64,000 nucleotides of DNA, from contig FN649738.1 in the NCBI GenBank assembly GCA_000310025.1, positions 1,342,742-1,406,741 of the forward strand, given 5' to 3'. The DNA is from Ectocarpus siliculosus. Its lineage: Eukaryota; Sar; Phaeophyceae; Ectocarpales; Ectocarpaceae. Under the pieces are notes generated by a model. The model saw only the letters and a program-made list of their open reading frames with translations. It did no database searches and was not told where the DNA came from. The translations under genes were made by a program, and so were the position numbers. Below are positions 15,963 through 51,104 of this stretch, in pieces; position 1 is the stretch's first letter; every line of letters starts with the position of its first letter.

Positions 15963-16063
15963 CTACCGGTTTTTAGCACCAAGTTCGCGAAGCAGCTCGT
16001 CGTGGAGTGCCAAGGTCTCTCTCAGCTCGTCCTGGGGCACCAGGCCGTCACTCATAGTCTCCG
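15963..16063 (-). CDS. tail exon 10 (terminal)
   Basis: 101 nt: [20 protein letters not shown] then [12 protein letters not shown] and TAG. Resembles the preceding exon (both VxLGQL/VPQDEL plus HDELxRE), so the two may be an exon duplication. Confidence 0.65.
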
Positions 16064-19000
16064 CTGGTGCAAGCGATCCCCAAGCATAAACAGGAAAGAC
16101 GAGGCGCGGCACGCATCCAAATAGGTGGCACGAGGGTCTCAAATGCAAAGGAGAAAGCTCAGGCGCTTAGTTGTGTAACCAGTATGCCAACACACGTGGG
16201 GTATCGCGACGTTAAAACACGAAAACGACACCAAGTGGTTGGGGACAGAAGCAAACGCCAAGCTCGCCGGGATGACCAAACGCCCATCAGACAAACCACA
16301 ACGATACACGAAGACAGTTCGACTAGTCAACGCAGCCATGCTCCACCAAACAAGTCAAATTACGACATCCGGTCGAGACAACGAGTTCAACTAACATCAG
16401 AGGCAACTCTTTCACGCGACCAGGATAGCGCGCAGATAGTGCACGTGTGAGTGAGAAAATTGCGCAATGATTCGAGAATAGAAAATACTGACTTTGACGT
16501 GAACGTGTGCCTTGACGTGAAGTTACCACAAGAGTGGAGCATTTGTACCTGCTCAAAAAGACTAGCGGAAAGCCCGTTGAATGACTTTGCCCACAGGCGC
16601 TCATGAGGGGAGGCCCAAACGAAAGCAGGCGAATGCTGAGTTTGGTTGTTCTCAGTCGCTCTACAAAAAGAGACGCATATAAGTATCTAGTGGTCGTGAA
16701 CACGATTCTGACGTACATTTACGGGTGATCTTGCAAACTGCCCTCTGAACACGGCTCAGTGTGGCATCATGCTCGCGATGCAGCTCATCGTGCTTGCTAA
16801 GCACTTCCTTCAGGAGCTCCACCGCCTCTGCCAGCTGCCCCAGGGTCACCACATCATTGCCCGCAGCCGGTGCTGACGTCGCAAACAACGCCCCGCGAGT
16901 AGGCATGAACGCAACATAACCAAAGGAGCAAGCAAGAGAGCGTGACATTTGGTGTCTTTGGCATGAGACGTGTGACGGGGAGAACGTGTTTGGTGAGATA
17001 ATGGTCGGCATCGTGAGTTCAAACCAGGGAACTGGGGAAAGCACTTTTTCACCGCAGCCATGCTCTACATGAGAAGGAACCATGCAAAACAGGGTAATCA
17101 AACAACTGAATGCTCGTGCACAATGGTACTATCGAATATGAGGAGAGAGAACGGGCTAGCGAAACACGTCGGAGCCTGACCAAGCATTCGATGAGATCAT
17201 GATTTTACGCCAGTTGCGCTGAGAAGAATGAATATTCACTCAGTCACGAACGCATCGATACACGAAAAGTTCGTCCCAGTCAGACGTTTGCCCTGTCAAA
17301 GCAACGAGTAGACATTTTCCCTGTTCCCTTCCTCGCGCCTAGAAAAAATAAAACATTTCTTCGGCATTAAATTGTGCTTCCACTCAAAGCTACGACAAAC
17401 ACTGCCGGCGCAAACCAACGCTAAAGCGTCGCCACGTCGAGCCCCGTGCAGGAGATTGGGAATTTACCTCTCTCTTGAGACCTCTCGAGAAAGTCATCCA
17501 CTCTCTCGGTGACAGCTTGCCGCTGCTGCAAAGCCTGCCCTCCCCCTGTCAATGGTCGTGGATTACACCCGAAAATGGCATGATGTGCGGCAGCGTTAAA
17601 ACGTCGGTCAAGTACGTATGACTGGTGGCGTAGGATGAAGCTTCGTTATACATCACACTCGACTGCTAGCGAAACGATAGTGTTTTCTCACCGGTGACAA
17701 ACCAATCAGATGAAAACGAACAGGCGTACAACCATGGGATTAATGTGCTGACACCGTCGGCCCCCGGGGCTGGCTTTGACAGGCAAACGTCGAAGGCACA
17801 CAGCATGCACAGACGACAATGCTACTGAATCATCGCAGAATTCCTCATGCACTTTAAGAGCGAGATGTGAGCAAGGAGAGTGTCAGCCCATATTCCCGCG
17901 GTTCCGTCGGCGGAACACACGGCGAAAATGTTTTGACAAAATCACTCTCCAATTCCAGACTTGCTCCAGGTGATGCGCAATGGCACGAGGAACACCATTG
18001 TAACGTTTCTCCACACGAGGGTAAATTTACCCGCCAGCCAAGTGGTCAGGACCAATGTGGACTCAGTTTCTCTAATACTACAATCCAGAGAATTTCCGCT
18101 GAGCATGCCACCCCTACACCTTGATTTATCGGTTTAACCCTGAGTTTCGTGGCCGTGAGCAGGTTCCCAGTGAAACAGTATCTAACCATCGCCGATGACG
18201 TTCTCGTTGGCAACTATGGATGGTCGGGTGGTCTATCCCTGTTGATACATCTCTAAATTTACGTGTGGATTTTACGGGGTTATGGCCAAGAGTAAGTCGG
18301 CCTTGCTCAATCTGCAAGAAGATTCCGCGCCCAAGGGGAAAATGTCACAGCGTCGCGTATTTTGTATCCAGCTGGCCATCCCACTTACCGCTAGGCACCA
18401 AGCTATCCGAGTCCGGCCCAGGCTTCATCACCATTTTGTTCAGGATTTTTACCTGGAAACAAACGCGGCAGCATGCAGCATGCTGGTGTCAAACGTAGAC
18501 ATCGGCCAGTGAACATCGACATGCTTCTGACAGCCCATCACGCAGCTATGTTCCACGACGGTGGAACTACTGAACGACCCTGTGCATGCTTGATGGTGAG
18601 CTTATCGACTATTAAAGAACCGGCAAAGAATGATGAAAGAGAGGTTTCTGAACCAACTGTATACTGCTGTATAGCACAGCAGTCACCATACCTCAGACTC
18701 CAGCTTGGCGTTTTTTGCATTTGCCGCTTCCAAAACGTCATTAAGCCTGGCGTTCTCTGCTTCAAGCTCGACTTGTTTCGCTTGAGAAGCTTCAAGACCA
18801 GATTCAAGCTCGACATGTTTCGCATGAGAAGCTTCAAGACCAGATTCTAGCTCGACATGTTTCGCATGAGAAGCTTCCAGGCCGGCTTTAAGCTCTTCGT
18901 GCGTTGCTTCCGTCCGAATGCGCATGGAAGCCATGCGCTCCATCAACGCTGCCACGTCAATATCACTCTTGGGAGCACCGTCAGGAACGGCTGGACGAGT

Positions 19001-22000: not shown

Positions 22001-25000
22001 GCCGCAGTCTTGCCCTCCACGAATCAAGACTCTCGTCTTTCGCCGGCCCTCCTGAATCGCACGAACACCAGTCAAGAGTGAAATGATACGCGTTATCCCC
22101 CTTATGAGCACACTCCACTCGTCACGACGCTGGACGAGTCATTCAATACTTCTACTCAACAACAAGAGCCCCGATACATTTCTATCAAATCATTGTTGAT
22201 GTCGTTTCCCCACTTTAATGTATTTTCATTGATTTTGCTTTTGCACGACCTTCCCGGCCGCATCCTTGCCATCATTGAGATACATGCGCCCTTGGAGTTA
22301 ATGGGAGAGATAGAGAGAGAGGGAGGGAGAGCGGAAAGAACCAGAGCCTCCATGTGCCTGATCGAGTGTCTGCACCAAATTTGTGGATAACAGAAATACA
22401 CTGCCTCGGATCCAACACACTTCCCCCGATTATTTCTTCGCATTCATGGTGCTCTGCCTGCAGCAAAGAAGGCGACTTTTCGGCAACATTCTGAAACACT
22501 GCATCATCGACAATACCCGACCTAAGGGCATATAGCCCACAAACGTCTCTGGAAACGTTATGGTTTTCCTGGGACGCCACCGGTTGCACCATCAAATTCT
22601 GTCTACTTTGCAACCATCGTCTCATGAAACAACGCATCGGCCATCACCGATAGACAACTTGATACATCCGAGCTGAATGTTTCGTGGGTAAAACTAGCCC
22701 AGTCGTGTGTACAGGTGAAAGCTCGAGGGTTGGGACAAGATGACGGTGAAAGAGTTCAAACGCCAATCAAAAGTTCACTGGTTCGGATCTTGCACTCAAA
22801 CCCATCTCCGTGGATGCTGTCCCGCCTTCACGGTAGTTCAATGGCCGGTGTTGGGTACCTTTGTTAAAAGTCAACAGGTTGTACGGCCTCCCTTGCTTTG
22901 TGGTGCATTTGGAGTTGCGTGCAATGTCCTCTCTTGAAAGAGAAGCGCGGCCTAAGCATTCTCACTCGTCGTTTCACCACTATAATAGTACAAGCTTCGT
23001 GACGGCTTTCCGGGTTTTCCCCGGAACGCAGCCACACAAGGAACATCGCACCCATACAATCACATGCTTCCGTGGGAGTGAAATGTGGCAATTGATTTTC
23101 TTGCTGCCACAGAGTTACGGCTCCACAGAATCTTGAAAAACTCCATGGCCTTTTCGGTGTCCAAGAGGCAATGAATGCTCAACTACGGTTCTGCGTCTAC
23201 TCTCCCTCACCGGTCAGGTAGTTGCTGTCGATCTCAAGCCTCTTCAAGTTGCGCAGAGCTCCAAACTCGTGAGGGATGGAACCTGGACAAATATGCATCG
23301 CATGCTATTTAAGGCTCGTCATCGTCCCGCCGGACGTTGCGGGTAACATACGAATGAAGGCGCCGGCTGTACGACAGCGGTCCGTCTACGGTGTTCAACC
23401 AACACGAGGTTTTATCACTGCCAGAGCACTTTCGAGGATGTGAATTGCACGACGAGCACCGCCGGGTCAGACATGTCCTAGCATACGACGGTCTTAATGC
23501 ACTTGTCAACGGCTCCCATTAAATGCCATCATCAAGCCACCAATCCTAGGGCTGCGACCGGAGGCTGCGAGATTCCGCACGGTCCTTCACGTGTTTCCGC
23601 GAGGACCCATTTCGTATTCCTTGTCTCTATGTTTTGCCGCTGGCTATGCTAAGACAAGGCAAGGTTGAAAACGGAATAGCGATTTATCAGTTCTAGTTCC
23701 ATGTTCGCATTTTGTTTACGGTTCAAAACACCTCCCTGAACCGAATGTTTGACCTACTGCAAAGTGTGCGAAGTATAGCAATTGGTTCTTGCTCTTCACA
23801 CATGATATGGCGTCACTTTACTCCCTGGGAAAAATCACGGCATTTCCGGTGTACACTCAGCTATGCAATGCATGCCCAATGTCCGCGATACTGTTTTGTA
23901 TTTTAGACCCGGTTCTCCGTCGGCTTTCCCTCAACGGTCAGGCAACATGTTTGGGACGGACAAAGCGGCGTATTGGGGATACCAGTGTTCCATCTAAACA
24001 AGTTCCCTGGAAATCTACCCCCCAAAGGAAAATACGCAACGTTCACCTTCTTCAGCTCGCCAGGGCTCCAGTGACCTCTTGGACAAACTTAGAAACACAC
24101 CAAAAAATAAAACCAATAGGGGCAGCACGCCGAAACGAACCTCTTGCTCTTGATTTTACGGACATCACCTTAGCCGTGCGGCAATGAATTGAGCGATACA
24201 GAGACAGGGCGGCGGCAAAAGCCACCCACCCGAGCTATGTATTTGGTTTTCACAAGGATGGATTGGCAATGGTTGGGCACTGTGACATCGTCATCCCCTT
24301 GTGACAGTCCTCGGAACCGCCACAAAGAGAGATCAACCCGTCGCATTCTTCCTCTTTCCTCGGACATTCAACCGGCGGTCGGTTCGGCGTATTGGGTACC
24401 ACATTGTGGCACAACGGAAGGGCGAAGGCAGTAGCCACTACCTGAGCTGTGTGATCGTGTGCACATCGCGTTTCCCGCAGGTTGAGGCTGTGAGGAAGAT
24501 TAGGCTTCGTCGACGATGTATCGCACTGCTTTCAATTCGAACGGAAATCACGCCGCTTGACGACCGCGGTCATTTCGATTTTGAGTGTTTCGGTGGTAGC
24601 TTTAGAGGAAAAGGGCGGAGTACCTTGAAAAGCCACCGCCAGATACAAACAGTATACTAAATCAAGTTTATCATGAAAGGTTGTGAGATAAAACAACCCA
24701 TCATCTATTGCATCGTAGGCTGGGCCGGCCTTGGTGCGAATGAAGCTGATACTGATTTCTGATTTCACGTCACCTATAGACGGTTGCCATGGAGATGAAC
24801 ACGTGCCAACGTGGCTAGAGCTCGACGTGTTTCGGGAGTGGGACATATATAAATCACATGGCAAATGCTACACTCTTTGCCTCGTCACAGTCAGTCACGG
24901 CGTGATGAAAGATGAACGATGCCGCCGCCGTAATGAACGTCCGTCGTGCCTCCCCGCGTTGGCGAGACTCGAAAAGAACCGATTTTACCACGACATCCTC

Positions 25001-28000
25001 TCTCACCAGTGATCTTGTTGCCGTTGATGAGAAGCATCTCCAGCTTGCTGAGGGCTCCAAGCGCCTTGGGAATGGGTCCTGCGTAAGACAATTACAAAAT
25101 GTGTCATACCCATGATCAAATTGAAACTGTTGACCATGACATGAGTGCCGCCCACGCCTTGTGCGTGCGGGAAAACTTCTACAAGCTACAGTAGTCTTAC
25201 CAGAAGCCGAGCAACACCGATTGATATGTAGTCAACATGTTTTACCAGTAGGCTGTTGTTGATTGCGGCCAACGAGTTCAGCAGATCAGCCCCACACTCA
25301 GGCCAAGCACCCCAAGCTCCCCAACTTGAGAGTATTTGTCATCGTGTGCTTGCTGGCTACCGGCGTGGTGCGTCCCCGGTGAAGAGGGACAGGACCTTCC
25401 GCTTCAATGACATCGGTTCTGGCTGGGTTTAGACGACATCTCCAGGGACACAGATGCAGCGCGCAGGAGCAAAGGCAACCGCCTGAGCCATGCCTTATTT
25501 GGCCTCCACGATGCACAACGATTGGAAGCTCGGAGGCCACCATTCTTCTGAAAAACATGCTTGCATGTACATGGAACAAACAGAGGTCAACCCAATTCCT
25601 GTAGCCTCGATATACAGTGCATATTCGATAGGTTCCGAGGGAAAGCGCAAACGAGATGAACAATACATGTTATCAAGCTGTGACGCATGGCGCGTCCTGA
25701 GCTGCGATGACGACGCGCCGCGGGGTTGTGACTGTCTCACAGCAACCTGCTTGAACCCCTACGAAGACCGACCGCTGTGCTGCCGCGGTGAACATTGTAG
25801 GAAGTGCCTCGCACAGTCACCACATACTGTACGCGCGGTTAGATTAGGGCCGTTTTAAACATGCAAAGCACATTCTTACATAAATTTTATGTTTCCAAGT
25901 TTGGAAACTTTGCGCGGCGAGTTCGAAGGCAAAATCTTCGGAACCTTTCCGAACATTTGGAAGCTACCGTTCCAAAGTTTTGGGGCCCTCATCAATTTCA
26001 AATTGTTTATGACTTCCAAATTTTAATTTTTGGAATTTGGAAATTTGGAAAAAAACGCTATCACTAAAACGGCCCTTATGCAGTGTTGTTGACTCCAACC
26101 CCGTGTGGAGGGCAGTGCCGCGAGGGCTAAAACGACCTGAACCGTAGCCCAACCTCCACCGATGTACATAGATCAAAACGCGGCCACGATATCGCAAAAC
26201 GCGTTTTGTGTGTTTTCGTCCTATTTATGATGGCGACAGTCCCCCCACTTTTCGTGTTGACGTGCACTACATGTATGTAGAGAACTGCACTTTTCAGTGT
26301 ATTTTTCGTACAACTACAACCAGCCAGGGTCACACAGGAGGGGGTAAGCACCGGGGCTTATTGCTTTTATATTTTTTCTATTTTCGTGCCCCACCTAAAT
26401 CCTGTTAAGCGTGCTGAAAATATATTTTTATTGCGAGAAGGGATAGCCGTCCCTTTCCCTCGTCAACGGTGCTAGTGTCGAAGCTTGGTACTCACGACGT
26501 TTTCAGCCTTTCCTTTCTCTTTCACCCGCAAAAGTTGTATATACATTCAACCCATGGGGACTCGAACTCACGACGACTTTGCCACAAGCGGTTTCGAGGT
26601 TACCACTAGACGACCGGGACGACCAGTGGCACAGTGTCGAGAAATACCCAACAGGGGGTCTACAGGCGGAATACATCCCCGGCACCTTGGGGACGAGCCC
26701 TGATATAGTACAATCGCCAGACATAAAGCAGACACGTTCGTCTGTATGAGGATTGCGCGATGCTATACGAGCCAACCAGACAACTTACTGGAACCCGAGC
26801 AAGGCCGACTGGCAGTCAAACCCTGTTGCCGGTGAGCTCGCTTGGGTCTGGACTACCGCAACCAATACATCGACCCGATAATCAGGTCATTCGTCTCAAG
26901 CTCTCAAACGTTAATATCCTGCCGATGGTCTCACTGTTCTGACTACCAGTATTGTTGCAGAACACCAAGGTCCGCCTACTCCCAAGAGCATCGGTTCCGG
27001 GTTTTGGGCAACAACTCCAGAAATACAGAAGCATAATACAAGGGGAAACGTCCCCCGCCCGAACCATGCCTGCGCCTCTACGATCACCAAGTACAACGGC
27101 TCGAATGTGTGCGAGTGTTTATCATTCAAACAGAAATGTTTTCAAGTATGGACAAACAGAGGCAACGCTTTGGCCCAAGACGCCGCCATATGCATCATTC
27201 AAACTGAGGGACTTGAATAGGCAGGCAGAGTGACGTCAAATACAACAGCGTCATACATGGCCGAGGTCCTTCGGGACGAAGGGGTTCCAGTATTTACCGC
27301 CAGATGCAAACAACTGATATCAAACGATATCATGAAGTTGGAGCGGGTCCACAGCAAACCATCACCTGGAGCGTCGTACGCGGCATTGTTCCCACATCAC
27401 GCTGAGTTTACTCTCCCTCACCAGAAAGTGCGTTGCCGCTGAGCCCAAGCCGTTCCAACTTGCCGAGATCTCCAAGTACTCCGGGGATGGACCCTGCACA
27501 AACCAAAAAAGAGCCAAATGGTGATCTCGTTAAGGAGCCGCTGATGGGCGAGGTGTAGTGAAACATACATGGTGCGGCGGGCTGGTCAACAAAACGGTCC
27601 GACCTACCGCGTGGGCGAGACACGAAAGGAATCAATCTTCCCACGCCATCCTATTTCACCAGGTGAGCTTGTTGTGGTACATGGAAAAAATCGTCAGTTC
27701 GTTGAGAGCTCCAAGCGCCTCGGGGATGGGACCTGCAGCAGACAAAGGGACAACGAGTCACATTGCCTGGTCAAATTGAAAATGTAACGCAAGACATGAT
27801 GTGTCGCTCACGCCTTGTGTGTACTGTACGGAGGTGCTCTACAACCTAGCAAAACACCAGAAGCCAACACCAGCCATGAGACAACGCCTACTATTGTTTC
27901 CCTCATAATTCAGCTTGGTTCGGATCGCGACCAACACGATCAGCATATCGCACTGACACGTAGGTCAAGCATCCACATCTCTCAAACATCCCCCGTGATG

Positions 28001-40000: not shown

Positions 40001-43000
40001 GTCTTCGATGATATGTAGGCGAAAGCCAAGTGAAATAGAAATAGCCATTCCTTTGAGGTATAAAACAGTTACTTGAGTTGCGCCTACAATGCACCGTGAG
40101 GGTGTCGACGTCACACGAAAAACTGTGACGACACCCCAGCACACCAACTGGCTACCTCCCTTCTCCCTCGGCCTGCTCCCCGGCCGGGGCCAAAATCGAC
40201 CTAGTGAGTCCCTCCCGGCCGAACCAGGCCACAACAGATAGTAGGCGGGTGGTGTCCCAAGGTGCAACTCACCGCCGCGCTGGCTCAGCGCGGCGGTGAG
40301 GATGCACAGGCGGTGGTAGTGGCAAGAGGTGTGCATGGACACTGTTCCCGCGGCAGCAATGCAAAGCGGCAAACTGCACCTAGCAACCACCGTCGCGGAA
40401 AGCGTGGCCCACGAAGCTGGAGGAGTAGAGAGATTCGTAAACACTACGTCAGTAAGCACCGCTCGCGGGAGAAGGGAGACAACCGCGGGCACCGCGGGGA
40501 GGGAGTGCTGCACCCTCCTCGTCAAAACACCACAGGCAAGAACCGAGCCCTGCAGAGATAGGATTGATGCGAGGAAACTCGCCGCTCGGAAAAAACGGAA
40601 GAAACTACACCCGCAACGCGAGGCGGGCCGAGAGAGACAGGAGACAGCAGCGGCCGTCAAGGCGGCTGCGAAGAAGAAGGCACGGGAGGGCGACCTATCG
40701 TTCGGGACGTTCAACGTACGCACGCTCGCCTACAGCGGTAGGAACTCCATCGGTCACAACGTGATGACGATCATGCAGATCTGCTCCGCGACCGGCTGTG
40801 ATGTGATAGGACTTCAGGAGACCCGACGAGAGGGGCAAGGTTCAATTGCACACGACGGGTACGTGATCATCTGGAGTGGCGCCCGTGCTGGCACCAAGGA
40901 CAAGAGGGGCGTGCATGGTGTGGGCATAGCGATCAAGGAGGCCATATGGGAGAGTGTGGGCGAGGAAGGTAGGACGGTGGAGTGCATTAGCCCGAGGCTG
41001 AGGAAGGTGCGTCTACAAATTGGCCTCACCTGCGGAGTAACTTTCGTGGTGGGGTACGCCCCCACGGAAACTGTCCCCACCACCGCGGGCGGTGATATTA
41101 ACGCCAAGGACTCCTTCTGGACTGCTCTCGACGCAGCGATCCGGGAGACTCACAGCCGTGACCATCTCGTGGTGCTAATGGACGCCAACGCACGCACTGG
41201 CAGGAGGCGAGACGGGTGTTGCGATGCCAAGAGTATGGGCGCGTACGGACGGGACATTACGAACAACAACGGGGAACGACTCCTTGGACTGGCATCAGAC
41301 AACCAACTCTCCCTGATCAACACCTACTTTCGAACACCGAAAGGTGGAGTGCAGCACACGTTCCAGAGCTCCAACAACGGGAAGGAGAAGTCCCGCCTCG
41401 ACTTCATCCTCATGCGTCAGACGGACCGGCGTTTCGTGCGTAATGTCTCCGTCAAACATGTCGATTTCAAGGACTCTGACCACAACCTCGTGCTTACGAC
41501 TGTCCGCCTCCCCCCCCGTGTCGCACCCAACCGACGAGTGCGGGGGAACAGCGGGAGCAGCCGGATCCGTATCGACCTCGAGCAGTTAAGGAAGGACAAA
41601 CATCTCCGGACCGCCTTCCAAGACAGGGCCTCCAGCCGCCCTTCGCCCACGGCGCTCAGGCGGCCAACGGGAGAGACCGCCGCTGAGCTGACGGATATGG
41701 TGATGTCGGCCGCTGCCGAGACCGCGCCGCTGGCGAGGTGCGCACGAGGGCAGAGAGGCTGGTACACGAGCGAAGCGCGGCACGAGATCTCCGAAGCGTC
41801 TAAAGAGATTAGGGCGGCCCAGCAGCAACTGCGTGGGGCCTCAAAGAACAGCGCCTTCGAGGCGACCCTGAAGGCGATGCTCAAGGCGGCGCGGAAGAAG
41901 CGCAGCATCGCGAGGTGGAGAGCACTGGAAACGTTCTTCGAGGGTTATGTACGGCAGCTCGAGAAGAAGAGCCGCGAGGGGGATCAGGCGGGTTTCTACA
42001 GGCACCTGAAGATGATCGACATCGAAGGTAAGAGGTCGTTCACCTCTCAGAACATCAGGGACGAGGACGGCAAGGTCCTTCGGGACCCCACCTTTATTCG
42101 CCAACGGTGGGCGCGGTGGTTCCACAAGCTTCTCAACACCAAGTCGCCGACCATCGATCTGCATGCGGTTGACAAGGTCAAGCAGTGGCCCACGTGCGTG
42201 CCACTCGACGACATCCCACCTCTATTCGAGGTTGAGGAAGCGGTACGGGAAATGGCCAACAGAAAGGCCGTCGGGCCGGACGACCTACCGGCTGAGCTGA
42301 TCAACCTTTTCCTGGACAGAGATCAAGGCCTCCTCCGCGAGTTCCACGCCATCGTCGTGGACGTGTGGCAGACGGGGGACATACCACAGCAGTGGAAGGA
42401 TGCCACCAGCAAAGTGCGGTTCAAGAAGGGGGATACGATGGAGTGCGGCAACTACCGGGGCATCTCTCTCGTCGCACACGCCGGCAAGGTGCTGCTTAAG
42501 GTCGTCGCTACACGACTGAGCCACTACTGCGAGCGAGAGGGCATCCTCCCGGAGGAGCAGAGCGGTTTCCGCCCACACCGGTCGACGCTCGACATGCTGT
42601 TCGCGATCCAGCGGCTCCATGAGCTCGCGAGGAAGAAGAGTACTGCGGTCTTCGCGTGCTTCGTCGACCTCACCAAGGCGTACGACTCGGTGGACCGAGA
42701 CCTACTGTGGGACGTGCTCCGACGCTTCGGCGTGCCCCCGAAGATGCTGGCGGTCATTCGCCACTTCCACGAGGGCATGAGGGCGCGCGTCCAAACGGAC
42801 GAAGGGCAGTACTCGGAATGGTTCGACATGGGCCAAGGCCTCCGACAGGGATGCAACCTGGCCCCGCTGCTGTTCAGCTTGTTCCTTGCCGCGATGCTCA
42901 TGGTCGCCGTGGCCGAGTTCGACAAGGACCCCAAGGTAACGGCGGACATGGTCAAGATCGGGACACAAGTGGAGTACACGGGCAAGAAGGGCAGGGCGGC

Positions 43001-46000
43001 GGGGAAGAAGACGACGGTGGTGACGGACGTGGAGGCCCTGTGGGCCATGCTCTACGCTGACGACGCGGCTATCGTCTCGCTCTCGCCGGAGAGCCTCGAG
43101 AAGAGGATGTCGGTCATCGTGCGCGTAGCCGGCCTGTTCGGACTGATGGTATCGGAGCCAAAGACGGAGATCATGTGCATGCTGCCGAAAGGGATCGAGG
43201 AACGACCGTTCACGGTCAGCGCCGCCGGCCAGACGTATTGTACAAGCAGACAGATCGGTTTGTGTACCTCGGACGTACCATCTGCGCGGACGGGAAGGCC
43301 GACCGGGAGATCACGAGCCGCACCTGCCGAGCGTGGAAGCGCTACCGCCGGAACACTGCTTCGATGTACGACAGGCGATGGGCCGACCGCCAGCTCAAGA
43401 TCCGGCTACTCCAGGTTGAAGTGGTGGAGACTCTCCTGTACGGGTGCGCCTCGTGGAGCCTAACAGCGGAGCACTACACGAAGCTCAATGGGACCCACCG
43501 CCAGTTCCTGACACGGTGCATCGGCTGGAGCAAGCGCAAACGCTCAGACCGCCCCCTGTCCTATGCCCAGGCCCTCATCCAGGCCGGCTGCGAGGAAACC
43601 ATCGAGGTCACCGTGTGCAAACGGAGACTGTGTTTTGCGGGCTTCGTTACGCGCATGGAGGACAACCGCCTCCCCAAGCGGATGCTGGTAGGGGTGATGG
43701 CGGGGGGCGTGGAATACCGGGGCGGGCAGGAGAGCGACTGGATGTCTCGTCTAGGAGAGGACCTCGTGGCGTTCAACATGGGAGACGAAAAGGAAGGGGG
43801 GAAATGGAAAGAGAGCGCCAAGGATCCGGAGGCGTGGTACAACAAGGTCGAGGACGGGGTGGCATGGTTCATGAGGAAATGGCACAGACAGGAGGCGGAA
43901 GCGTCCGCGAAGCGCCAGCGCGCTAGGGAAGCAGAAGCAGGGAGTACGGCCATCTCGGGATCGAAGAGAAAGAGAGTCGGGGAAGTGTTTTTTTTTTCAT
44001 GTCCTCCCTGCCTACTGTGCCTTGTTGGGTACCTTGATCTCCCTTTTGCCGTTGCTTTTGCTTTTATATAGATGGTTGTCTGCCCATCTGCCGCCTCTTT
44101 GTTCTGTTGCCCCCATTACTCCCATGCCCTGGTGCGTAGTGCCTGATGCTGGTACGGTACCCTTTGATTTTTTTAGGCGGGTGTGGGAAGCGCTCCTTTT
44201 TCCCTTTTATTTTTGCCTTTATTTTTGTTTAGTTTTATTTTGATCGGTTTCCTAGGGCTCCTTTTCTCGACTGGTCGGTGCGGTAGCTGTTCTTTTCTTT
44301 CTATCATTTTGTTTTCTTTTTCCGAGTGGTTTCCCTGCGGCGTCGTATGTGCCGGGTTGTGCGACCACGGGTTCCACATTTTTGTGGACTATAGAGTTAA
44401 TGTGAGAGATACAACAAAACCATACAACAACAAACCAACAACAAGGCCACCGACGTTCTGTCGCCGCCTTGACTGAGCAAAGTGTCACGCATAGTCGCCA
44501 CTTCGCTATGGGCCAACAGACATACCGCGTATATGCAGTCTTGCCGAGCCCACGCCCGTGTATGGGGAAACATCGCTTCAAGTGAAGCAAACATGATAAT
44601 GCTACAGCAAAACCTCCACTCCTATGGGACACCTATCAAAGTGCCCACGGTATGGTATCGTGCAATACGTGTTGCCAAATACCGGACAACGTGTACATGA
44701 ACGGATATGAGCTGCGAGTTGCTTGAAACGTTGTCTTTGCTACAGCAACCAAACCAATACACAAACAACCAACACAAGACACCATCATCAATGTCGTGCG
44801 ATTCTACGGCACACCACCCTCCGCGACATCGTGAGCGGGATTGTTCCCGCTTCGCAACGTGTTCCATTGTCCCTCACCGGTCAGCTGGTTGCCCTCGAGT
44901 CGAAGAATTTGCACTTTTCCGAGGCCTCCAAGCTCTCCGGGGATGGAACCTGCACGGGTGTACAGCAGGTGGCCCACTGGTTATGCTGCTGCTGATGCAC
45001 TGAGCATGATAAAGAAACATGTGTGATGCCGCCGGCTTGTTCAACATCGGACCCGCCTACGTCGTGGGCGAGACACGAAATGATGTCCCCACGCCATCCT
45101 CCCTCGCCGATGAACTTGGCGACGTTCACCACACAAGTTTCTTCAGCTTGCGATGTACGTCTCACGTGTCATCGACTTGCATGCGTTCTCCAAGATGAGA
45201 ATGTCGCCACCGTTTCGTGGGTTCGGGGGACGCTATGCAAGCCAACCAGACCACCTATTGGTACCCTTTAATGGCAACCAAACGCTCTTGCCAGTGAGCT
45301 CGCTTGCGTCCGGACTACCGCGACCAACGCATCGACCTGACACTCACGTCGGAAGTCGCAAGCTCTCAAACTGCTGCATCATGCGAATCGTTTCAAATCC
45401 TGACCACCCGCGGTATTGCTGCAGGGCACCGAGGCCTCCCTACTCAGACGAAGTTGGATCTATATCTCCAAGAGTATCGGTTCCGGGTTTAGGCCACAAC
45501 TCCAGGGATACAGTTGCATGGTGCAAGGGGAACTGTCCCCCGCCCGAGGCATGCGTTTGGTGCCTCTACGATGTAGAACGGTTCGAAGGTGTGCGATTGT
45601 TATCGTTCCTACACTGAAGCAAACGTTTGCAGAATGGACGCAGAGAGTTCACGCCATTTCCAGCCTCCTGTTGCCTCCCTTCCCGGTGCGTGCTAGAAAG
45701 ATTCCGAGTAAAGGCCAAAGGGGGATGAAACCTCGACCTCTTAGAGGTGCACTGCATGGCACGTCCTGAGTTGCAAGTACGATGCACCTTGAAGCTGATT
45801 TGGCAGGCATAAAACAAGCCGTGACAACACCCCAACACATCAAACGAGGAGCCACTGATAGGTTGCCTTCATATTTGGAGGAAGTGTCACGTGTACTCCC
45901 CACGTCGCTACGGGCCATCTGGCATTCCGCGTACATACGATCACGTCGCGTGTCGTGCAGGGGACACCACGAGTCTCATTTCATAGACCAACGGCAGACC

Positions 46001-49000
46001 TAAGCTAAGGCTGCGTCACCTATATCAATCCAGCTGAGCGACTTGAAGAGGCAGGGAGAGTGTCGCCAAATAACGGACAAGGGGTACAACAGCAGCATAC
46101 AGCGCCGAGGTCCTTTCGGTACAGCCGGGTCACAGTACAGCACGACCGCCAGATACAAACGTTAGCATGAAGGCTGTAGGATCCTGAAGCAAACCATGAT
46201 CTAGGGCGTCGTAGGCGGCCTTGTTCTGACATCGCGCTGAGTTGCATTCTCTCTTACCTGAGAGCTGGTTGCCGTTGAGCCAAAGCTCTTCCAACTCGCC
46301 GAGAGCTCCAAGCACTCCGGGGATGGACCCTGCACAAAACAAAAGAGCCAAACGGTGAACTCGTCAGTTCGCCGCTGGTAGGCGCGGCGTGGTGAAAATG
46401 TATGATGCGGCCGGCTGGTTAACACAACGGTCCGACCTACCGCGTGGGCGACACACTAGATGGATCAATATTCCCACGCCATCTCGTCTCACCAGTGAGC
46501 TTGTTGTCGTGCATAAAAAGCGTCTTCAGCTCGCCGAGAGCTCCAAGCGCCTCGGGGATGGGTCCTGCACGAGACAAAAGCACAATGAGTCACATTTCGT
46601 GAGCAAATTACAAATGCAACGCAAAACACAATGTGTCGCCCACGCCCTGTGTGTAATGTACGAAGATGCTCTACACCCTAGCCATACTGTTTACCAGAAG
46701 CCGAGTACACCAGCTATGAGTCAATGCTTTTGGTTCCCTCAGAATCCAGGTTTGTTCGGATCGCGACGAACACGATCAGCGTATCGTGCTGCCAGCTAGG
46801 TCAAGCATCCCAATCTCTCAAACGTCTCGTAAGAAAACCCGCCGATCTTCTCACGGTCCGAGTACCCGACATGTTGCAGGCACCAATGTCTCCCTACCCA
46901 AACAATATGTGACCTATCTCTCCACGGGCATCAGTTCCGGATTTAAAGAGACAAGTTCTGGGAGGAACATGCAGAGAGCAAGGGATAAAGACTCCCGCAC
47001 GAGGTATGCATCTGTGCCTCTAAGATGTACAACGGTTCGAAGGTGTGAGATTGTTATCGTTCAGAGAGCAAGGTGTTGATTATGGACACAGAGAGGTCAC
47101 GCCACTGCCAGCCTCCTTGGCATCGCTTTCCGGTGCTTCGTTGATAGGCTCCGAGGATTTGCAAAAGGGAAATGAAACGGTCACCTGCAGGAGGTGCATT
47201 GCATGGCACTTCCTGAGTTGCAAGTACGATTCACCGTGAAGTTGCTGTGGAATGCATAGAGCAATCCGTGACGACACCCCAACACACGGAACGAGGAGCC
47301 ACCGATAGGTCGCCTAAATGTTTTGGAGACGTGTCACGTGTAGTCGCCACGTCGCTACGGACCATCTGGCATGCCGCATATTGACAATCACGTCGCGAGT
47401 GGTGCAAGCGACACCACGAGTCTGATTGAACGGAGAAACGGTACGCCTAGGCCAAGGCTCCGTCACATACATCAATCCAGCTGAGCTACTTGAATAAGCA
47501 GGGAGAGTGTCACCAAATACCGGACGAGGGCCGAGGTCCTTCGGTACGGACGGGTTCCAGTACAGCACGACCGCCAGATACGAAAATCATCATGAAGTTA
47601 GTAGGATTCTAAAGCAAACCATCATCTAGGGCGTCGTAGTCGGCATTGTTCTCACATCACGCTGAGTTGCATTCTGCCTTACCTGAGAGTTGGTTGCAAT
47701 GGAGCCAAAGCTGTTCCAACTTGCTGAGAGCTCCAAGCTCTCCCGGGATGGACCCTGCTCAAAACAAAAGAGCCAAAAGGTGAACTCGTACGTTGGCAGC
47801 TGTGGATCTGGGTGCAGTGTGTGTGTTGTGTTTTCGTCCTATGTACTATGGCGACAGTTCCCCCATTTTTCGTGGTGAGACGTGTACTACACTTTTAATT
47901 GTATGTTTTTCGTACAACTACAACCATCCAGGGTCACACAGGAGGGGATAAACGCCGGGGCTTGTCTCTTCTTGGCCCCACCTTCCTCCTGCGGTGCGGG
48001 CTGAATTTTGTTGTTTATCGCGAGAGGGTTCCAGCCGTTCCTTTCCCTCGTCGACGCTGCTAACGTCGAAGTTTGGTACTCACGAGAGTTTTTTAGCTTT
48101 CTTTCGCTTTCACCGCGCAAGCGTTGTATCTTTTCACCCCATGGGAACTCGAACTCCCGACTTTGCCACAAGCGGTTTCGGGGTTACCACTAGATCACCG
48201 GGGCGACCGACTGCGACACATGAACATTGCGGCCGGCTGGTAAAAAACATTCGTCCGACCTACCGCGTGGGCGAGACACGAGATGGATCAATATTCCCAC
48301 GCCATCCTATCTCACCAGTGAGCTTGTTGTCGTGCATAAAAAGCTCCTCCAGCTCGCTGAGAGCTCCAAGCGCCTCGGGGATGAGTCCTGCACGAGACAA
48401 AAGCACAATGAGTCACATTTCGTGGGCAAATTACAAATGCAACGCAAAACACAACGTGTCGCCCACGCCCTGTGTGTAATGTACGAAGATGCTCCACACC
48501 CTAGCCATACTGTTTACCAGAAGCCGAGTACACCAGCTATGGGTCAACGCCTTTTGGTTCCCTCAGAATCCAGGTTTGTTCAGATCGCGACGAACACGAT
48601 CAGCATATCGTGCAGCCAGTTAGGTCAAGCATCCCAATCTCTCAAACGTCTCTCGTGATGAAACCTGCCGAACGTCTAGCGGTCCGAGTACCCGACATGT
48701 TGCAGGCACCAATGTCTCCCTACCCAGACGAGATGTGACCTATCTCTCCACGGGCATCAGTTCCGGATGTAGGAGACAAGTTCTGGGAGCAACATGCAGA
48801 GAGCAAGGGATAAAGACTCCCGCACGAGGTATGCCTTCTGTGCCTCTAAGATGTACAACGGTTCGAAGGTGTGAGATTGTTATCGTTCAGAGAGCAAGGT
48901 TTTGAAGTATGAACACAGAGAGGTCACGCCACTGCCAGCCTCCTGTGGCATCGCTTTCCGGTGCTTCGTTGATAGGCTCCGAGGATTGGCAAAAGGGAAA

Positions 49001-51104
49001 TGAAACGGTCACCTGTAAGAGGTGCATTGCATGGTACGTCCTGAGTTGCGAGTACGATGCATCGTGAAGCTACCGTGGAAGGCATAGAACAAGCCGTGAC
49101 GACACCACAACACATGGAACGAGGAGCCACCGATAGGTCGCCTAAATGTTTTGGAGACGTGTCACGTGTAGTCGCCACGTCGCTACGGACCATCTGGCAT
49201 GCCGCATATTGACAATCACGTCGCGAGTGGTGCAAGCGACACCACGAGTCTGATTGAACGGAGAAACGGTACGCCTAGGCCAAGGCTCCGTCACATACAT
49301 CAATCCAGCTGAGCTACTTGAATAAGCAGGGAGAGTGTCACCAAATACCGGACAAGGGCCGAGGTCCTTCGGTACGGACGGGTTCCAGTACAGCACGACC
49401 GCAGCATTGTGAAGCAAACCATCATCTAGGGCGTCGTAGGCGGCATTGTTCTCACATCACGCTGAGTTGCATTCTGCCTTACCTGAGAGTTGGTTGCCGT
49501 CAAGCCAAAGATGTTCCAACCTGTCGAGAGCTCCAAGCTCTCCCGGGATGGGCCCTGCTCAAAACGAAAGAGCCAAACGGTGAACTTGTAAGTTGGCAGC
49601 TGTGGATCTGGGTGCAGTGTGTGTGTTGTGTTATCGTCCCTTTACACTTATTATTGCGACAGTCCCCCCATTTTTCGTGGTGAGACGTGTGCTAAACTTA
49701 TTCAGTGTAGATTTTGCGTACAACTACATCCATCCAGTGGTACACAGGAGGGGATAAACACCGGGGCTTGTATCTTTATGTAGATTTTCGCGCCCCACCT
49801 TCCTCCTGCGGTGCGGGCTGAATTTTGTTGTTTATCGCGAGAAGGGTCCAGCCGTCCCTCTCCCTCGTCGACGCTGCTAACGTCGAAGTTTGGTACTCAC
49901 GTGGGCTTTTTAGCTTTCTTTCGCTTTCACCCGCAACGCTGTACCTTTTCACCCCGTGGGGACCCGAACTCATGACTTTGCCACTTAGGGGTTTCGAGGT
50001 TACCACTAGATCACCGGGGCGACCGACTGCGACACATGAACAATGCGGCCGGCTGGTAAAACCCATCCGTCCGACCTACCGCGTGGGCGAGACACGAGAT
50101 GGATCAATATTCCCACGCCATCCTATCTCACCAGTGAGCTTGTTGTCGTGCATAAAAAGCTTCTTCAGCTCGCTGAGAGCTCCAAGCGCCTCGGGGATGG
50201 GTCCTGCACGAGACCAAAGCACAATGAGTCACATTTCGTGGGCAAATTACAAATGCAACGTAAAACACAATGTGTCGCCCACGCCCTGTGTGTAATGTAC
50301 GAAGATGCTCCACACCCTAGCCAAACTGTTTACCAGAAACCGAGCACACCAGCTATGAGTCAACGCCTTTTGGTTCCCTCGGACTCCAGGTTTGCTCGGA
50401 TCGCGACGAACACGATCAGCATATCCCACTGCCAGTTAGGTCAAGCATCCCGATCTCTCAAACGTCTCTCGCGATGAAACCTGCCGATCTTCTCACGGTC
50501 GTCCCACTGGATAGTCGATGTTTCATGCCACACATGTTTCCCCGCTCAGAAGAGATGAGGCCATTCTCTTCAAGGGTATCGGTTCTGGTTCTAGGAGTAG
50601 AGATGAAGGGAGCTACGAAGCGGTGCCGTGAATCATGCCTTGTTTTACTTTTATTATCTATTCGGGAATTGTGAGGTTGGTATCGTCCCGAAAGTAATGC
50701 TTGGGAGCTCATGGACGCTCATGGCGTGCTAGCTAAACACGGGAGCTAAGGGCGTCAATTCGCATCAATGAACATAGGAAAGATCATCCAATGACAACTC
50801 GATGCCGACACCAAGCAGATGGCACAGTTTGAGCAAATTCATAACGCGGACTAGACATTGCAATACCGTGGAGGTTGTTGTTCGGCAGAGACAGCCCCAC
50901 CACACGGCCCGCGTGGTTAACTTTGACCCCCTCCCAAGTAGCTAGCCCCGCGTCCGTGTTCCAGTTGCTGTTCGTCTTCCAATTCGCTCCATCAGTCGAA
51001 CGAAACAACGCAACCAGTGCGGCACGATCCATGGAAGACACCAGCTCCGAGGGGCTGCTTTGGAATGCACGACGGAAAAAAGAAACACGATCCATGGAAG
51101 ACAT
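15963..51104 (-). CDS. giant LRR cassette gene with unrecognised coiled-coil tail (about 32 exons)
   Basis: Exon 1 (50867-51104) holds [18 protein letters not shown] and [20 protein letters not shown], a cap common in stramenopile LRR proteins. It is followed by 21 LRR exons of 72 nt (one of 73), each phase 1 at both ends and each giving one 24-residue G-x-IP-x2-LG-x-L-x2-L-x2-L-x2-N-x-L-x-G repeat of plant-like/bacterial type. The last LRR exon (23211-23282) joins in phase 1 to ten tail exons: 21648-22051, 21251-21418, 20995-21114, 20723-20879, 20034-20173, 19781-19873, 18692-19135, 18389-18452, 16723-16872 and 15963-16063. Every junction is phase-consistent. The predicted protein is about 1,196 residues, or about 1,172 if the 73-nt exon is skipped. 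No ROC GTPase, kinase or NB-ARC motif is seen in the tail, and no clear signal peptide. A split into two genes near 22.1-23.2 kb is possible. Likely a recognition protein (inference). Confidence 0.7.
16723..16872 (-). CDS. tail exon 9: short coiled coil
   Basis: 150 nt, phase 1-1: [40 protein letters not shown]. Donor GTAAAT. Confidence 0.65.
18389..18452 (-). CDS. tail exon 8
   Basis: 64 nt, phase 0 in, phase 1 out: [20 protein letters not shown] then SG. Acceptor TTTCCAG, donor GTAAGT, both conserved in the paralogue (60865-60928). Confidence 0.65.
18692..19135 (-). CDS. tail exon 7: coiled coil with 14-residue repeats
   Basis: 444 nt, phase 0-0: [18 protein letters not shown], a Ser/Ala-rich linker, then a long coiled coil in which [14 protein letters not shown]-type 14-mers repeat about three times. 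Ends [10 protein letters not shown] at GTATGG. Confidence 0.75.
19781..19873 (-). CDS. tail exon 6
   Basis: 93 nt, phase 0-0: [20 protein letters not shown] then [11 protein letters not shown]. Strong pyrimidine-rich acceptor; donor GTACAG. Confidence 0.75.
20034..20173 (-). CDS. tail exon 5: acidic segment
   Basis: 140 nt, phase 1 in, phase 0 out: [20 protein letters not shown] then [14 protein letters not shown] to PAVQ. Donor GTATAC, the same in the paralogue. Confidence 0.7.
20723..20879 (-). CDS. tail exon 4
   Basis: 157 nt, phase 0 in, phase 1 out: [32 protein letters not shown], to GVEG. Donor GTGAGG. Confidence 0.6.
20995..21114 (-). CDS. tail exon 3: Gly/Ala-rich hydrophobic segment
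   Basis: 120 nt, phase 0-0, donor [21 protein letters not shown], then [19 protein letters not shown] and TRRVSK. The hydrophobic GxxG/A pattern could be a membrane or helix-packing segment (inference). Confidence 0.7.
21251..21418 (-). CDS. tail exon 2
   Basis: 168 nt, phase 0-0, donor [26 protein letters not shown] and onward to TGRMGA. The paralogue at 63651-63818 has the same length. Confidence 0.65.
21648..22051 (-). CDS. tail exon 1: Gln/Glu-rich linker and helical segment
   Basis: 404 nt, phase 1 in, phase 0 out (GTGAGC donor). Opens [20 protein letters not shown], continues with a Ser/Thr/Lys/Pro-rich linker, then helical [20 protein letters not shown] and [16 protein letters not shown]. 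Acceptor CGATTCAG. The phase match to the LRR exons is the main reason for joining LRR and tail. Confidence 0.7.
23211..23282 (-). CDS. last LRR exon, diverged
   Basis: Phase 1-1 72-mer; [10 protein letters not shown] then [13 protein letters not shown]. The next in-phase exon downstream is the first tail exon. Confidence 0.8.
25007..25078 (-). CDS. LRR exon, diverged
   Basis: Phase 1-1 72-mer; [10 protein letters not shown] then [13 protein letters not shown]. Donor GTGAGA. Confidence 0.85.
25847..26075. mobile_element. Tourist/PIF-Harbinger-like MITE, 229 bp
   Basis: Ends GGGCCGTTTTA and TAAAACGGCCC are perfect 11-bp inverted repeats flanked by TTA on both sides (25844-25846, 26076-26078). 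The 3-bp TTA duplication and the GGGCC start fit PIF/Harbinger. The interior is A/T-rich and holds several self-complementary GGAA/TTCC blocks. Confidence 0.85.
26207..26624 (-). mobile_element. tRNA-derived SINE, copy 1
   Basis: On the minus strand the 5' end is tRNA-like: GGTCGTCCCGG, an A-box-like TCTAGTGGTAACC, and a B-box-like GAGTTCGAGTCCC about 40 bases on. A body of about 330 bp is shared with the copies near 48.0 and 49.8 kb. The 3' boundary is approximate. Confidence 0.75.
27422..27493 (-). CDS. LRR exon, type c-like
   Basis: Phase 1-1 72-mer; [10 protein letters not shown] then [13 protein letters not shown]. The 238-bp spacing to the next exon matches the c-a spacing of the recent units. 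Confidence 0.85.
27660..27732 (-). CDS. LRR exon, 73 nt (frameshifted unless skipped)
   Basis: [10 protein letters not shown] then [12 protein letters not shown], but one extra base before the GTGAAA donor makes the exon 73 nt. Including it breaks the downstream frame; skipping it keeps phase 1 across the junction. The donor is also weaker than the GTGAG of its sisters. Confidence 0.65.
28943..29014 (-). CDS. LRR exon, type a
   Basis: Phase 1-1 72-mer; [10 protein letters not shown] then [13 protein letters not shown]. Confidence 0.85.
30157..30228 (-). CDS. LRR exon, type b
   Basis: Phase 1-1 72-mer; [10 protein letters not shown] then [13 protein letters not shown]. Confidence 0.85.
30387..30429 (-). 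pseudogene. LRR exon remnant (type p)
   Basis: 3' half of an LRR exon with a 2-base insertion. The IP half is missing. Shared with three sister units. Confidence 0.55.
31656..31727 (-). CDS. LRR exon, type c
   Basis: Phase 1-1 72-mer; [10 protein letters not shown] then [13 protein letters not shown]. Confidence 0.85.
31890..31961 (-). CDS. LRR exon, type a
   Basis: Phase 1-1 72-mer; [10 protein letters not shown] then [13 protein letters not shown]. Confidence 0.85.
33123..33194 (-). CDS. LRR exon, type b
   Basis: Phase 1-1 72-mer; same peptide as the 30157 and 35934 exons. Confidence 0.85.
33353..33395 (-). pseudogene. LRR exon remnant (type p)
   Basis: Truncated LRR half with a 2-base insertion. 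The GTGAGG donor is retained. Confidence 0.55.
34484..34555 (-). CDS. LRR exon, type c
   Basis: Phase 1-1 72-mer; [10 protein letters not shown] then [13 protein letters not shown]. Confidence 0.85.
34718..34789 (-). CDS. LRR exon, type a
   Basis: Phase 1-1 72-mer; [10 protein letters not shown] then [13 protein letters not shown]. The exposed residues differ from its sisters while the flanking intron is nearly the same. Confidence 0.85.
35934..36005 (-). CDS. LRR exon, type b
   Basis: Phase 1-1 72-mer; [10 protein letters not shown] then [13 protein letters not shown]. Confidence 0.85.
36164..36206 (-). pseudogene. LRR exon remnant (type p)
   Basis: Same truncated, 2-base-inserted LRR half as at 30387 and 33353. 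It lies just outside the DIRS-like element. Confidence 0.55.
36503..37209 (+). pseudogene. DIRS-like RT-RNase H polyprotein remnant (RNase H part)
   Basis: The first frame gives [16 protein letters not shown] and ends CILWSDM. A second frame, used from about 36610, continues [47 protein letters not shown] and [16 protein letters not shown]. Together these carry the RNase H acidic residues D (WSD), E (NMLEL), D (GDNSS) and D (IADGIS), so the gene is broken by one frameshift near 36605-36615. The reverse-transcriptase domain normally found upstream is absent. Confidence 0.7.
37104..38192 (+). CDS. tyrosine recombinase of DIRS-like element, 362 aa
   Basis: The N-terminal SAM-like part contains [19 protein letters not shown]. 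The catalytic part shows an Arg in [32 protein letters not shown] with the H-x2-R pair, GRW in the second His/Trp position, and the nucleophile Tyr in FEIYTRDNM. The length is typical of DIRS recombinases, and the ORF is open from the overlap with the RNase H frame to the stop. In the family it integrates a circular cDNA without target duplication. Confidence 0.85.
   Translation: MYRRLSGDYVRESVAQSSRRTYLSGWRAWCAFRRMIGESEYLSGDVDGAGLKQALLEFVVWCCADKGNIAPSISGKLAAVQYFHRVDKQLELPTGAPLIKRSLLSVARVHVRAGTKSRSRVPVSWETLVEEQQLTASWGSGGRVMWLCLALSYFLVARSDEVFATLSGQCHQVHCLRRSDVEFFDGEYVLAPLHWHKATGVRVRFRGHKGDQSETGACVTRVRDVARGASSQIGAGGVVVAVLVELMACHLALPEKAPLCSFRCSRSSTVKVWGYSKALSALRQIVEKAGGDPRQVGLHSLRIGAATTLAAGGDVPDRIMQREGRWKEGSGTFEIYTRDNMVDVDMVSQKLAKGKKTEQKKG
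38801..39364. repeat. resumed LRR unit 3 after the DIRS-like insertion
   Basis: Aligns with 31329-31889 and 34240-34717. It carries the type-c exon. The part of the unit between remnant p and this point is missing. Confidence 0.8.
39130..39201 (-). CDS. LRR exon, type c
   Basis: Phase 1-1 72-mer; [10 protein letters not shown] then [13 protein letters not shown]. Confidence 0.85.
39365..39436 (-). CDS. LRR exon, type a
   Basis: Phase 1-1 72-mer; [10 protein letters not shown] then [13 protein letters not shown]. Identical in peptide to the 31890 exon. Confidence 0.85.
40270..40298 (+). other. 12-bp perfect hairpin in 5' region of non-LTR element
   Basis: CACCGCCGCGCT and AGCGCGGCGGTG pair around a 5-base loop. 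It lies about 120 bp inside the element and 31 bp upstream of the first ATG of the long ORF. Confidence 0.8.
40329..43463 (+). CDS. endonuclease-reverse transcriptase of non-LTR element (frameshifted near 43240)
   Basis: After a Lys/Arg-rich N-terminus comes an exonuclease-endonuclease-phosphatase domain: [39 protein letters not shown] and DSDHNLVL. The RT domain follows: [64 protein letters not shown], and the catalytic [10 protein letters not shown]. The FNVRTL and YLGRTI signatures are those of RTE-like/CFDP2-like elements. Meaningful coding ends at GQTY (about 43239); the remaining codons in this frame are a frameshift artefact. The initiator is uncertain. Confidence 0.85.
43175..44071 (+). 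CDS. C-terminal part of the non-LTR protein, in a second frame
   Basis: From about 43241 this frame continues the protein: [80 protein letters not shown], ending in a basic tail. It matches the conserved post-RT region of such elements. The 5-base offset (TTGTA-like) between the frames suggests a small insertion. Confidence 0.8.
44878..44949 (-). CDS. LRR exon, type b
   Basis: Phase 1-1 72-mer; [10 protein letters not shown] then [13 protein letters not shown]. Confidence 0.85.
45108..45150 (-). pseudogene. LRR exon remnant (type p)
   Basis: Only the 3' half of an LRR exon is recognisable ([12 protein letters not shown]-like). It carries a 2-base insertion, lacks the IPxxLG half, and here the donor is GC rather than GT. 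Confidence 0.55.
46258..46329 (-). CDS. LRR exon, type c
   Basis: Phase 1-1 72-mer; [10 protein letters not shown] then [13 protein letters not shown]. Donor GTAAGA. Confidence 0.85.
46493..46564 (-). CDS. LRR exon, type a
   Basis: Phase 1-1 72-mer; [10 protein letters not shown] then [13 protein letters not shown]. Confidence 0.85.
47683..47754 (-). CDS. LRR exon, type c'
   Basis: Phase 1-1 72-mer; [10 protein letters not shown] then [13 protein letters not shown]. Confidence 0.85.
47830..48208 (-). mobile_element. tRNA-derived SINE, copy 2
   Basis: Minus strand: GGTCGCCCCGG, GATCTAGTGGTAACC, GGAGTTCGAGTTCCC, then the shared body (GCGAGAGGGTTCCAGCCG block on plus). Inserted in the intron between the c' and a' LRR exons. 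3' end approximate. Confidence 0.75.
48316..48387 (-). CDS. LRR exon, type a'
   Basis: Phase 1-1 72-mer; [10 protein letters not shown] then [13 protein letters not shown]. Differs from the 50132 exon mainly in exposed positions. Confidence 0.85.
49483..49554 (-). CDS. LRR exon, type c'
   Basis: Phase 1-1 72-mer; [10 protein letters not shown] then [13 protein letters not shown]. Donor GTAAGG. Confidence 0.85.
49629..50024 (-). mobile_element. tRNA-derived SINE, copy 3
   Basis: Same head and body and the same intron position as copy 2. Copied by the 1.82-kb unit duplication rather than by a new insertion. Confidence 0.75.
50132..50203 (-). CDS. LRR exon, type a'
   Basis: Phase 1-1 72-mer; core [13 protein letters not shown] after [10 protein letters not shown]. 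Donor GTGAGA. Confidence 0.85.
50867..51104 (-). CDS. LRR gene exon 1: N-terminal cap
   Basis: Encodes [10 protein letters not shown], an in-frame second copy [18 protein letters not shown], then [20 protein letters not shown], ending HG in phase 1 at GTATTG. The start is uncertain: 51104, 51095 and 51032 are in-frame ATGs. Confidence 0.75.

Follow-up and report, generated by a model that had tools for sequence, protein, structure and literature searches.

A tandem cluster of candidate brown-algal LRR sensor genes with ordered blocks of 72-nt exons and diversifying exposed codons

The minus strand between 51104 and 15963 probably encodes a cytosolic brown-algal LRR sensor, a member of a tandem gene cluster whose arrays grew by blocks of exons in the order B-A-C and whose A and B repeats have a diversifying surface. 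The window is the whole stretch of 64,000 nucleotides that was analysed (C13:1342742-1406741), and positions are counted from its first letter; the genome searched comprises 189 Mb in 492 contigs. This genome has 880 first-look candidates for the EsV-1-7 domain, of which 150 were scored and all exceeded the cut-off, whereas 14 control genomes have none. The domain is expanded in brown algae; combined with the ROC domains downstream of related cap exons and with the 72-nt LRR exons, it makes a brown alga by far the most probable origin of the DNA. A preliminary description of this DNA had placed one gene over 15963-51104, and both ends agree with the present model, coinciding with an ATG at 51104 and a TAG ending at 15963.

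The gene consists of an N-terminal cap exon, 20 usable one-LRR exons and eleven C-terminal exons. The joined frame, read on the minus strand from the ATG to the TAG, is open over 1,210 aa when a 73-nt exon is skipped, and it meets a stop at codon 576 when all 21 LRR exons, including the 73-nt exon, are joined. The 20 LRR exons, which lie between 50203 and 23211, are exactly 72 nt long with AG-exon-GT borders and a split G|GN, and are in phase 1 at both ends; the first two bases of each complete a glycine codon and one base is left at the end. The encoded LRR pattern is GxIPxxLGxLxxLxxLxLxxNxL. The earlier count of 21 LRR exons of 24 residues each, 72 nt long with one of 73 nt and all in phase 1, was right. 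Searched strictly for LRR exons of 72 nt bounded by AG and GT, the window yields 20, each on the minus strand and within 15963-51104, whereas none turns up in any of 50 dinucleotide shuffles of the window.

By sequence, the LRR exons fall into type B (mostly ..M.DNKLT), type A (mostly ..L.GNQLS) and type C (mostly LRLDGNQLT), plus end units, all on the minus strand. Exons 1 to 6 alternate between B and A (B, 50132-50203; A, 49483-49554; B, 48316-48387; A, 47683-47754; B, 46493-46564; A, 46258-46329), and exon 7 is a C (44878-44949). Exons 8-10 (39365-39436, 39130-39201, 35934-36005), 11-13 (34718-34789, 34484-34555, 33123-33194) and 14-16 (31890-31961, 31656-31727, 30157-30228) each run B, A, C, and exon 17 (28943-29014) is again a B. 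The damaged 73-nt exon (27660-27732) is B-like, has its surplus base close to the 3' end and causes a frameshift when included. The end units are A0 (27422-27493), P (25007-25078) and the last LRR exon, Z (23211-23282). An nhmmer profile built from the exons recognizes a decayed LRR exon at about 24.77 kb (24773-24844; E 2.8e-4). It also picks up four half-exons near 30.38, 33.35, 36.16 and 45.10 kb, each 223 nt from a C exon, with E values of 0.024-0.28 that are weak singly. The intermediate steps attributed to this locus, i.e. similar units, remnants and one damaged exon, are present.

Gene 1, as this gene is called here, is by its alignments one of four or more tandem paralogues that are clustered on C13. 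Gene 2 aligns to it at 86.5% over 9.1 kb, gene 3 at 87.6% over 13.2 kb, and gene 4 in two stretches, of 7.5 kb (92%) and 3.1 kb (80%). Genes 2 and 3 each have a cap exon about 90% identical to the one in gene 1. In gene 4 an array and a tail are present, with no cap found in the stretch examined, and a run of 1,724 N bases begins next to its array. The number of LRR repeats differs among the paralogues of this one genome. One LRR exon of gene 2 carries a stop, and gene 4 has a stop in tail exon C1 as well as one out-of-frame LRR exon. Two A-type exons of gene 3, at 104403 and 102967 counted from the window start, have GC donors instead of GT.

Judged from the exon order and the intron alignments, growth of the array by tandem duplication of B-A-C multi-exon blocks is well established. 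When the four genes are read in the direction of transcription, the cycle B>A>C>B accounts for 35 of the 39 steps between neighbouring A, B and C exons. Shuffling the type order 100,000 times never gave 35 such steps, the best result being 27. The exons are not freely shuffled, because the order B>A>C repeats as multi-exon blocks. Introns align across units and genes, and therefore multi-exon blocks, with spacings of about 1.4 and 2.9 kb, were copied whole. The proposal of freely exchangeable single exons gives way to a tandem of ordered blocks in which introns were copied along with exons.

The gene 3 exon at 100142 (from the window start) was compared with three A and three C references. It is A-like upstream to -6 and C-like from +2 on; the exceptions are a single site at -8, which is C-like, and three sites past +160, which are A-like. 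This exon is likely to be the product of a crossover at the exon boundary, and such a pattern is expected from unequal crossing-over within the conserved first part of an exon.

Frame neutrality would also permit a use of the array in combinatorial splicing, with exons chosen or skipped by cell or tissue and many sensors made from one gene. Random subsets of the 20 72-nt exons stay in frame in 2,000 of 2,000 cases, which bears out the earlier statement that such exons can be gained, lost or skipped without a frameshift; the further statement that they can be inverted in order fails, since every exon is on the minus strand and no plus-strand exon was found. Two example Ectocarpus ROCO genes splice their LRR exons alternatively, according to the accessible part of PMC11378527. 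However, block duplication alone yields frame neutrality, and the type order is fixed, so that an array built for combinatorial splicing appears unlikely.

The long introns contain further elements. An 83-nt element (family D12) occurs at 11 places between 28034 and 50601 of the window, in copies of at least 60% identity spaced by steps of about 1.27-1.83 kb plus two longer ones (4.6 and 5.7 kb). To the eye it looks like the flank on the donor side of the LRR exons, and it may be a remnant of lost exons. Non-LTR retrotransposon frames for an endonuclease and a reverse transcriptase lie in a long LRR intron at 40320-44071 on the plus strand, antisense to the gene. The frame at 40320-43460 matches RVT_1 (E 5.6e-29) and an endonuclease (E 3.5e-8) in Pfam, and the adjoining frame at 43061-44071 has no Pfam match. 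A second repeated element in an LRR intron (36454-38192, plus strand) has two long frames, with related pieces on C16; by eye it was assigned to the tyrosine-recombinase type, for which Pfam gives no match. At 10709-13442 of the window, the plus strand carries pieces of a DNA primase large subunit (PF04104, E 1.1e-26 and 1.4e-11).

The exposed beta-strand codons on the concave face of the A and B repeats show diversifying selection when measured against introns beside each exon, which serve as a near-neutral yardstick for these predicted surface positions. The codons taken as exposed are 14, 15, 17, 19 and 20, i.e. position 14 plus four positions from PMC11378527, the accessible part of which gives the positively selected ROCO positions as 14/16/18/19 (15/17/19/20 in the present numbering). 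This set was fixed after the exon sequences had been seen, and exon pairs were picked by flank similarity alone. The selection test has 16 non-overlapping pairs (seven A and nine B); five C pairs were formed, and the end units were tested apart. The A exon at 78840 and the C exon at 44878 are unpaired, and the 73-nt exon, its gene 4 counterpart, the broken gene 2 exon and the recombinant 100142 are outside the test sets. In Fisher tests that count sites as independent, nonsynonymous change at A/B exposed codons (59.4/202 = 0.294) exceeds the divergence of the flanking introns (232/3543 = 0.065) with p 5e-21. The other codons of these exons have a nonsynonymous value of 0.047. Exposed codons of the C exons are at 0.071 vs 0.043 in their flanks (p 0.23), and in the end units, four pairs in all, any excess falls short of significance (p 0.064 for Z, 0.071 for P and 1.0 for A0). 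The array combines near-identical repeats with hypervariable predicted contact sites, and the suggestion that the locus diversifies a recognition surface is upheld for the predicted surface of A and B.

Synonymous change at the exposed codons is mildly raised as well (0.148 vs 0.065 in introns, p 0.04), so that mutation may contribute. A mechanism of targeted mutation or short-patch conversion, rewriting a core of 15-20 nt in A and B exons, would account for this slight rise. It would also suit exon 11 (34718), which differs from exon 31890 at 8 of the 15 exposed nucleotides and at 38% of a 24-nt core with flanks 4.0% apart, and differs from exon 28943 at 46% of the core with flank divergence of 2.7-3.6% over 92-112 nt per side, but 9.8% over 162 nt per side. 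Some cores are also nearer to cores of other genes than to those of their flank neighbours. Yet the change is mostly nonsynonymous (59.4 N vs 5.6 S), C exons in that array are unaffected, and in three of the nine B pairs the variable cores are identical at a flank divergence of 3-6%, all of which makes such rewriting very improbable. Because these three pairs keep identical cores, the diversification is patchy.

A decaying duplicate array under relaxed constraint would explain the 73-nt exon and the decayed exons, the stops and missing cap in sister copies, and the retrotransposon and second repeated element in the introns. Decay is nevertheless improbable given the open frame of 1,210 aa, the purifying selection on the tail over all six gene pairs (see below), and LRR framework codons that change no faster than introns. 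Relaxation is excluded as the cause of the pattern, because these framework codons do not exceed the intron rate while exposed codons run about 4.5-fold faster. Diversifying selection on A and B remains the preferred reading.

The predicted tail of about 650 aa is under purifying selection, as its pN/pS over all six gene pairs is 0.52 (bootstrap 0.39-0.69); in two of the six single pairs the interval reaches 1 (genes 1 and 2, 1.03; genes 2 and 4, 1.05). Ten tail exons were placed via conservation of splice-bounded frames among the four paralogues, via a homologue on C30, and by reading by eye. The frame needed an eleventh, and C7b was for this reason sought and found by eye. All are on the minus strand. 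C1 (21648-22051) is followed by C2 (21251-21418), by C3 (20995-21114), which has the lowest pN/pS (0.05), and by C4 (20723-20909), the 5' boundary of which is uncertain, since its AG is not common to the paralogues and this splice site of gene 1 is absent from the other three genes. C5 (20034-20173) has a pN/pS of 1.02 from few changes, and C6 (19781-19873) precedes C7 (18692-19135), which by eye is coiled-coil-like with in-frame internal repeats. C7b (18389-18452), C8 (17468-17545), C9 (16717-16872), also coiled-coil-like by eye, and the last exon with the TAG, C10 (15963-16063), complete the tail. Length differences of tail exons among the four paralogues are all multiples of three, and a third-position periodicity test in the tail gave nothing.

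Exons related to the tail are found on C30, C15, C33, C16 and C477 and at other places on C13. The C30 copy matches 7 of the 11 tail exons, six of them at 41-66% identity (61% for C2) and C1 at 26%; at E<=0.01 it lacks a match to C7, C7b, C9 and C10, and tblastn gives none for C7 and C9. Downstream of this homologue, ankyrin-like frames are seen by eye (C30:582001-592000). Pfam has no match in the tail for ROC, COR, NB-ARC, NACHT or kinase domains, nor for any nucleotide-binding domain up to E 1. Pfam searches with separate frames and with the joined tail gave sub-threshold hits only (best E 0.0072), among them several coiled-coil matches. In the PDB, a query of 135 aa from the tail had a best E of 0.42, and in NCBIfam a query of 371 aa had no match. 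The tail may contain a ROC domain that has diverged beyond the reach of Pfam.

The N-terminal cap exon (50867-51104, minus strand) begins with the ATG at 51104 and ends '...NNNLHG' in phase 1. In a hydropathy scan, its best 19-residue stretch reaches 0.67, a value for this exon alone, upstream of which a further exon may exist. This maximum argues against a signal peptide, and we infer an intracellular product from the lack of a hydrophobic stretch in the N-terminal exon. The term receptor-like, in the sense of a cell-surface protein, is not borne out, as this exon has no hydrophobic N-terminus and no kinase match was obtained. In the same type of scan, C3 has a 19-residue stretch with a hydropathy of 1.78 (1.32 in the C30 homologue), and the product might therefore have a membrane role.

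Brown-algal LRR-ROCO genes are reportedly the subject of a 2012 study by Zambounis et al. As described in the accessible part of PMC11378527, these genes have one LRR per 72-bp exon, diversifying selection and exon shuffling. The present gene has the same 72-bp exon, a similar consensus and the same phase (nucleotides 1-2 complete the preceding codon, which PMC11378527 calls phase 2). The reference of the preliminary description to brown-algal exon shuffling thus has a published basis for LRR-ROCO genes, whereas the present gene shows no ROC. It differs from them in having no ROC or COR match and a tail of about 650 aa with no named domain, and in forming a tandem cluster with ordered block duplication that includes introns; most ROCO genes are dispersed over different scaffolds, which the accessible part of PMC11378527 says of N. 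decipiens. Absence of COR is a weak test, as the part of Teng et al. that is accessible gives COR in just 18 of 111 ROCO genes. In this genome the only COR match is on C17, and among the 54 ROC matches listed none is on C13.

The cap exon has relatives throughout the genome, with 64 exons at E<=0.001. Ten are followed by the present tail, nine by a ROC match and 45 by neither, where a tail or ROC was assigned to a cap if it lay downstream on that strand, no more than 45 kb away and with no other N-terminal exon in between; since 45 of the 64 were assigned to neither, the class sizes are lower bounds. Two of the nine ROC-linked loci were examined (C483 and C461); their N-terminal exons are related to the present one (55% and 54% identity), and by pattern they contain 7 and 4 candidate 72-nt LRR exons. 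Because some caps precede this tail and others ROC, the combination of a cap with 72-nt LRR exons is used with two or more tails. A dispersed copy at C16:1272999-1275728 has a cap (N-terminus 81% identical) and four LRR exons by profile, two of which fit the 72-nt pattern; four tail frames searched over 29.5 kb gave no match there better than E 0.75. An LRR match at C476:356535-356699 lies within an open frame of 18,877 aa, by far the longest among the matches listed.

Human NLRP3 has far fewer LRR exons than the present gene, is not known to show comparable block amplification and contains a NACHT domain. It is alike in that modular LRR exons permit alternative splicing (accessible part of PMC6642158). 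The Tetrahymena LRR genes with 90-bp exons, as far as the accessible text of PMC6564038 goes, are alike in their tandem arrays, one exact exon length and phase, clonal expansion together with introns, ectopic recombination and a non-LTR element tied to LRR introns; they are unlike in the 90-bp length, phase 2, the thousands of genes and the unrelated lineage. The HNWD genes of Podospora share concerted, near-identical repeats, hypervariable sites in them that are subject to diversifying selection, and a change in repeat number for which unequal crossing-over was proposed (accessible part of PMC12222747). These NLRs differ in having WD40 repeats and a NACHT domain, and the part of PMC12222747 that is available makes no mention of separate exons for the repeats.

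A working scheme for the product would place the variable contact surface on the A and B repeats, with the C repeats as a constant framework or a common contact. The tail would oligomerise and signal when the LRR horseshoe binds its target, most probably a pathogen or other non-self molecule. Diversity would arise mainly in the germline, by unequal recombination and diversifying selection, and alternative splicing may add to it. The history of the locus includes block duplication, block loss and, in a sister gene, the likely exon-boundary crossover.

Immunity appears to be the likeliest use, and allorecognition fits as well; diversifying selection by itself is no proof of immunity. The surface might instead vary for self/non-self, gamete or symbiont recognition, since diversifying selection on contact residues suits any recognition arms race, and the HNWD repeat-sensor genes of Podospora act in allorecognition according to the accessible part of PMC12222747. 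Nothing in the locus favours reproduction, however, and a function other than immunity seems somewhat unlikely.

For brown-algal ROCO genes, exons of 72 bp with one LRR each, exon shuffling, and diversifying selection on these positions are already published. Relative to the accessible literature, what appears to be new is the other kind of tail, the clustering of the genes in tandem, the history of ordered blocks read against an intron yardstick, the conservation of the C exons and the resolution of a crossover at an exon boundary. Titles and abstract openings, a coverage outside which most subscription papers fall, name no non-ROCO gene with 72-bp LRR exons in brown algae.

Tentatively, these genes may represent a second class of intracellular LRR sensors in brown algae, in which a ROCO-like cap and 72-nt cassette are joined to a signalling tail of their own, and the B-A-C arrays would be young, active substrates for recombination that are diversified in the germline and possibly by splicing too. 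The exon cassette appears to be separable from the ROCO GTPase, as related caps and LRR exons occur with at least two kinds of tail, and for this reason the present class would escape any survey in which a ROC domain is a requirement. The homologous introns provide an internal clock, with which diversifying selection can be measured exon by exon, the C exons being a built-in control, and they let recombination steps in the history of these candidate sensors be read directly.
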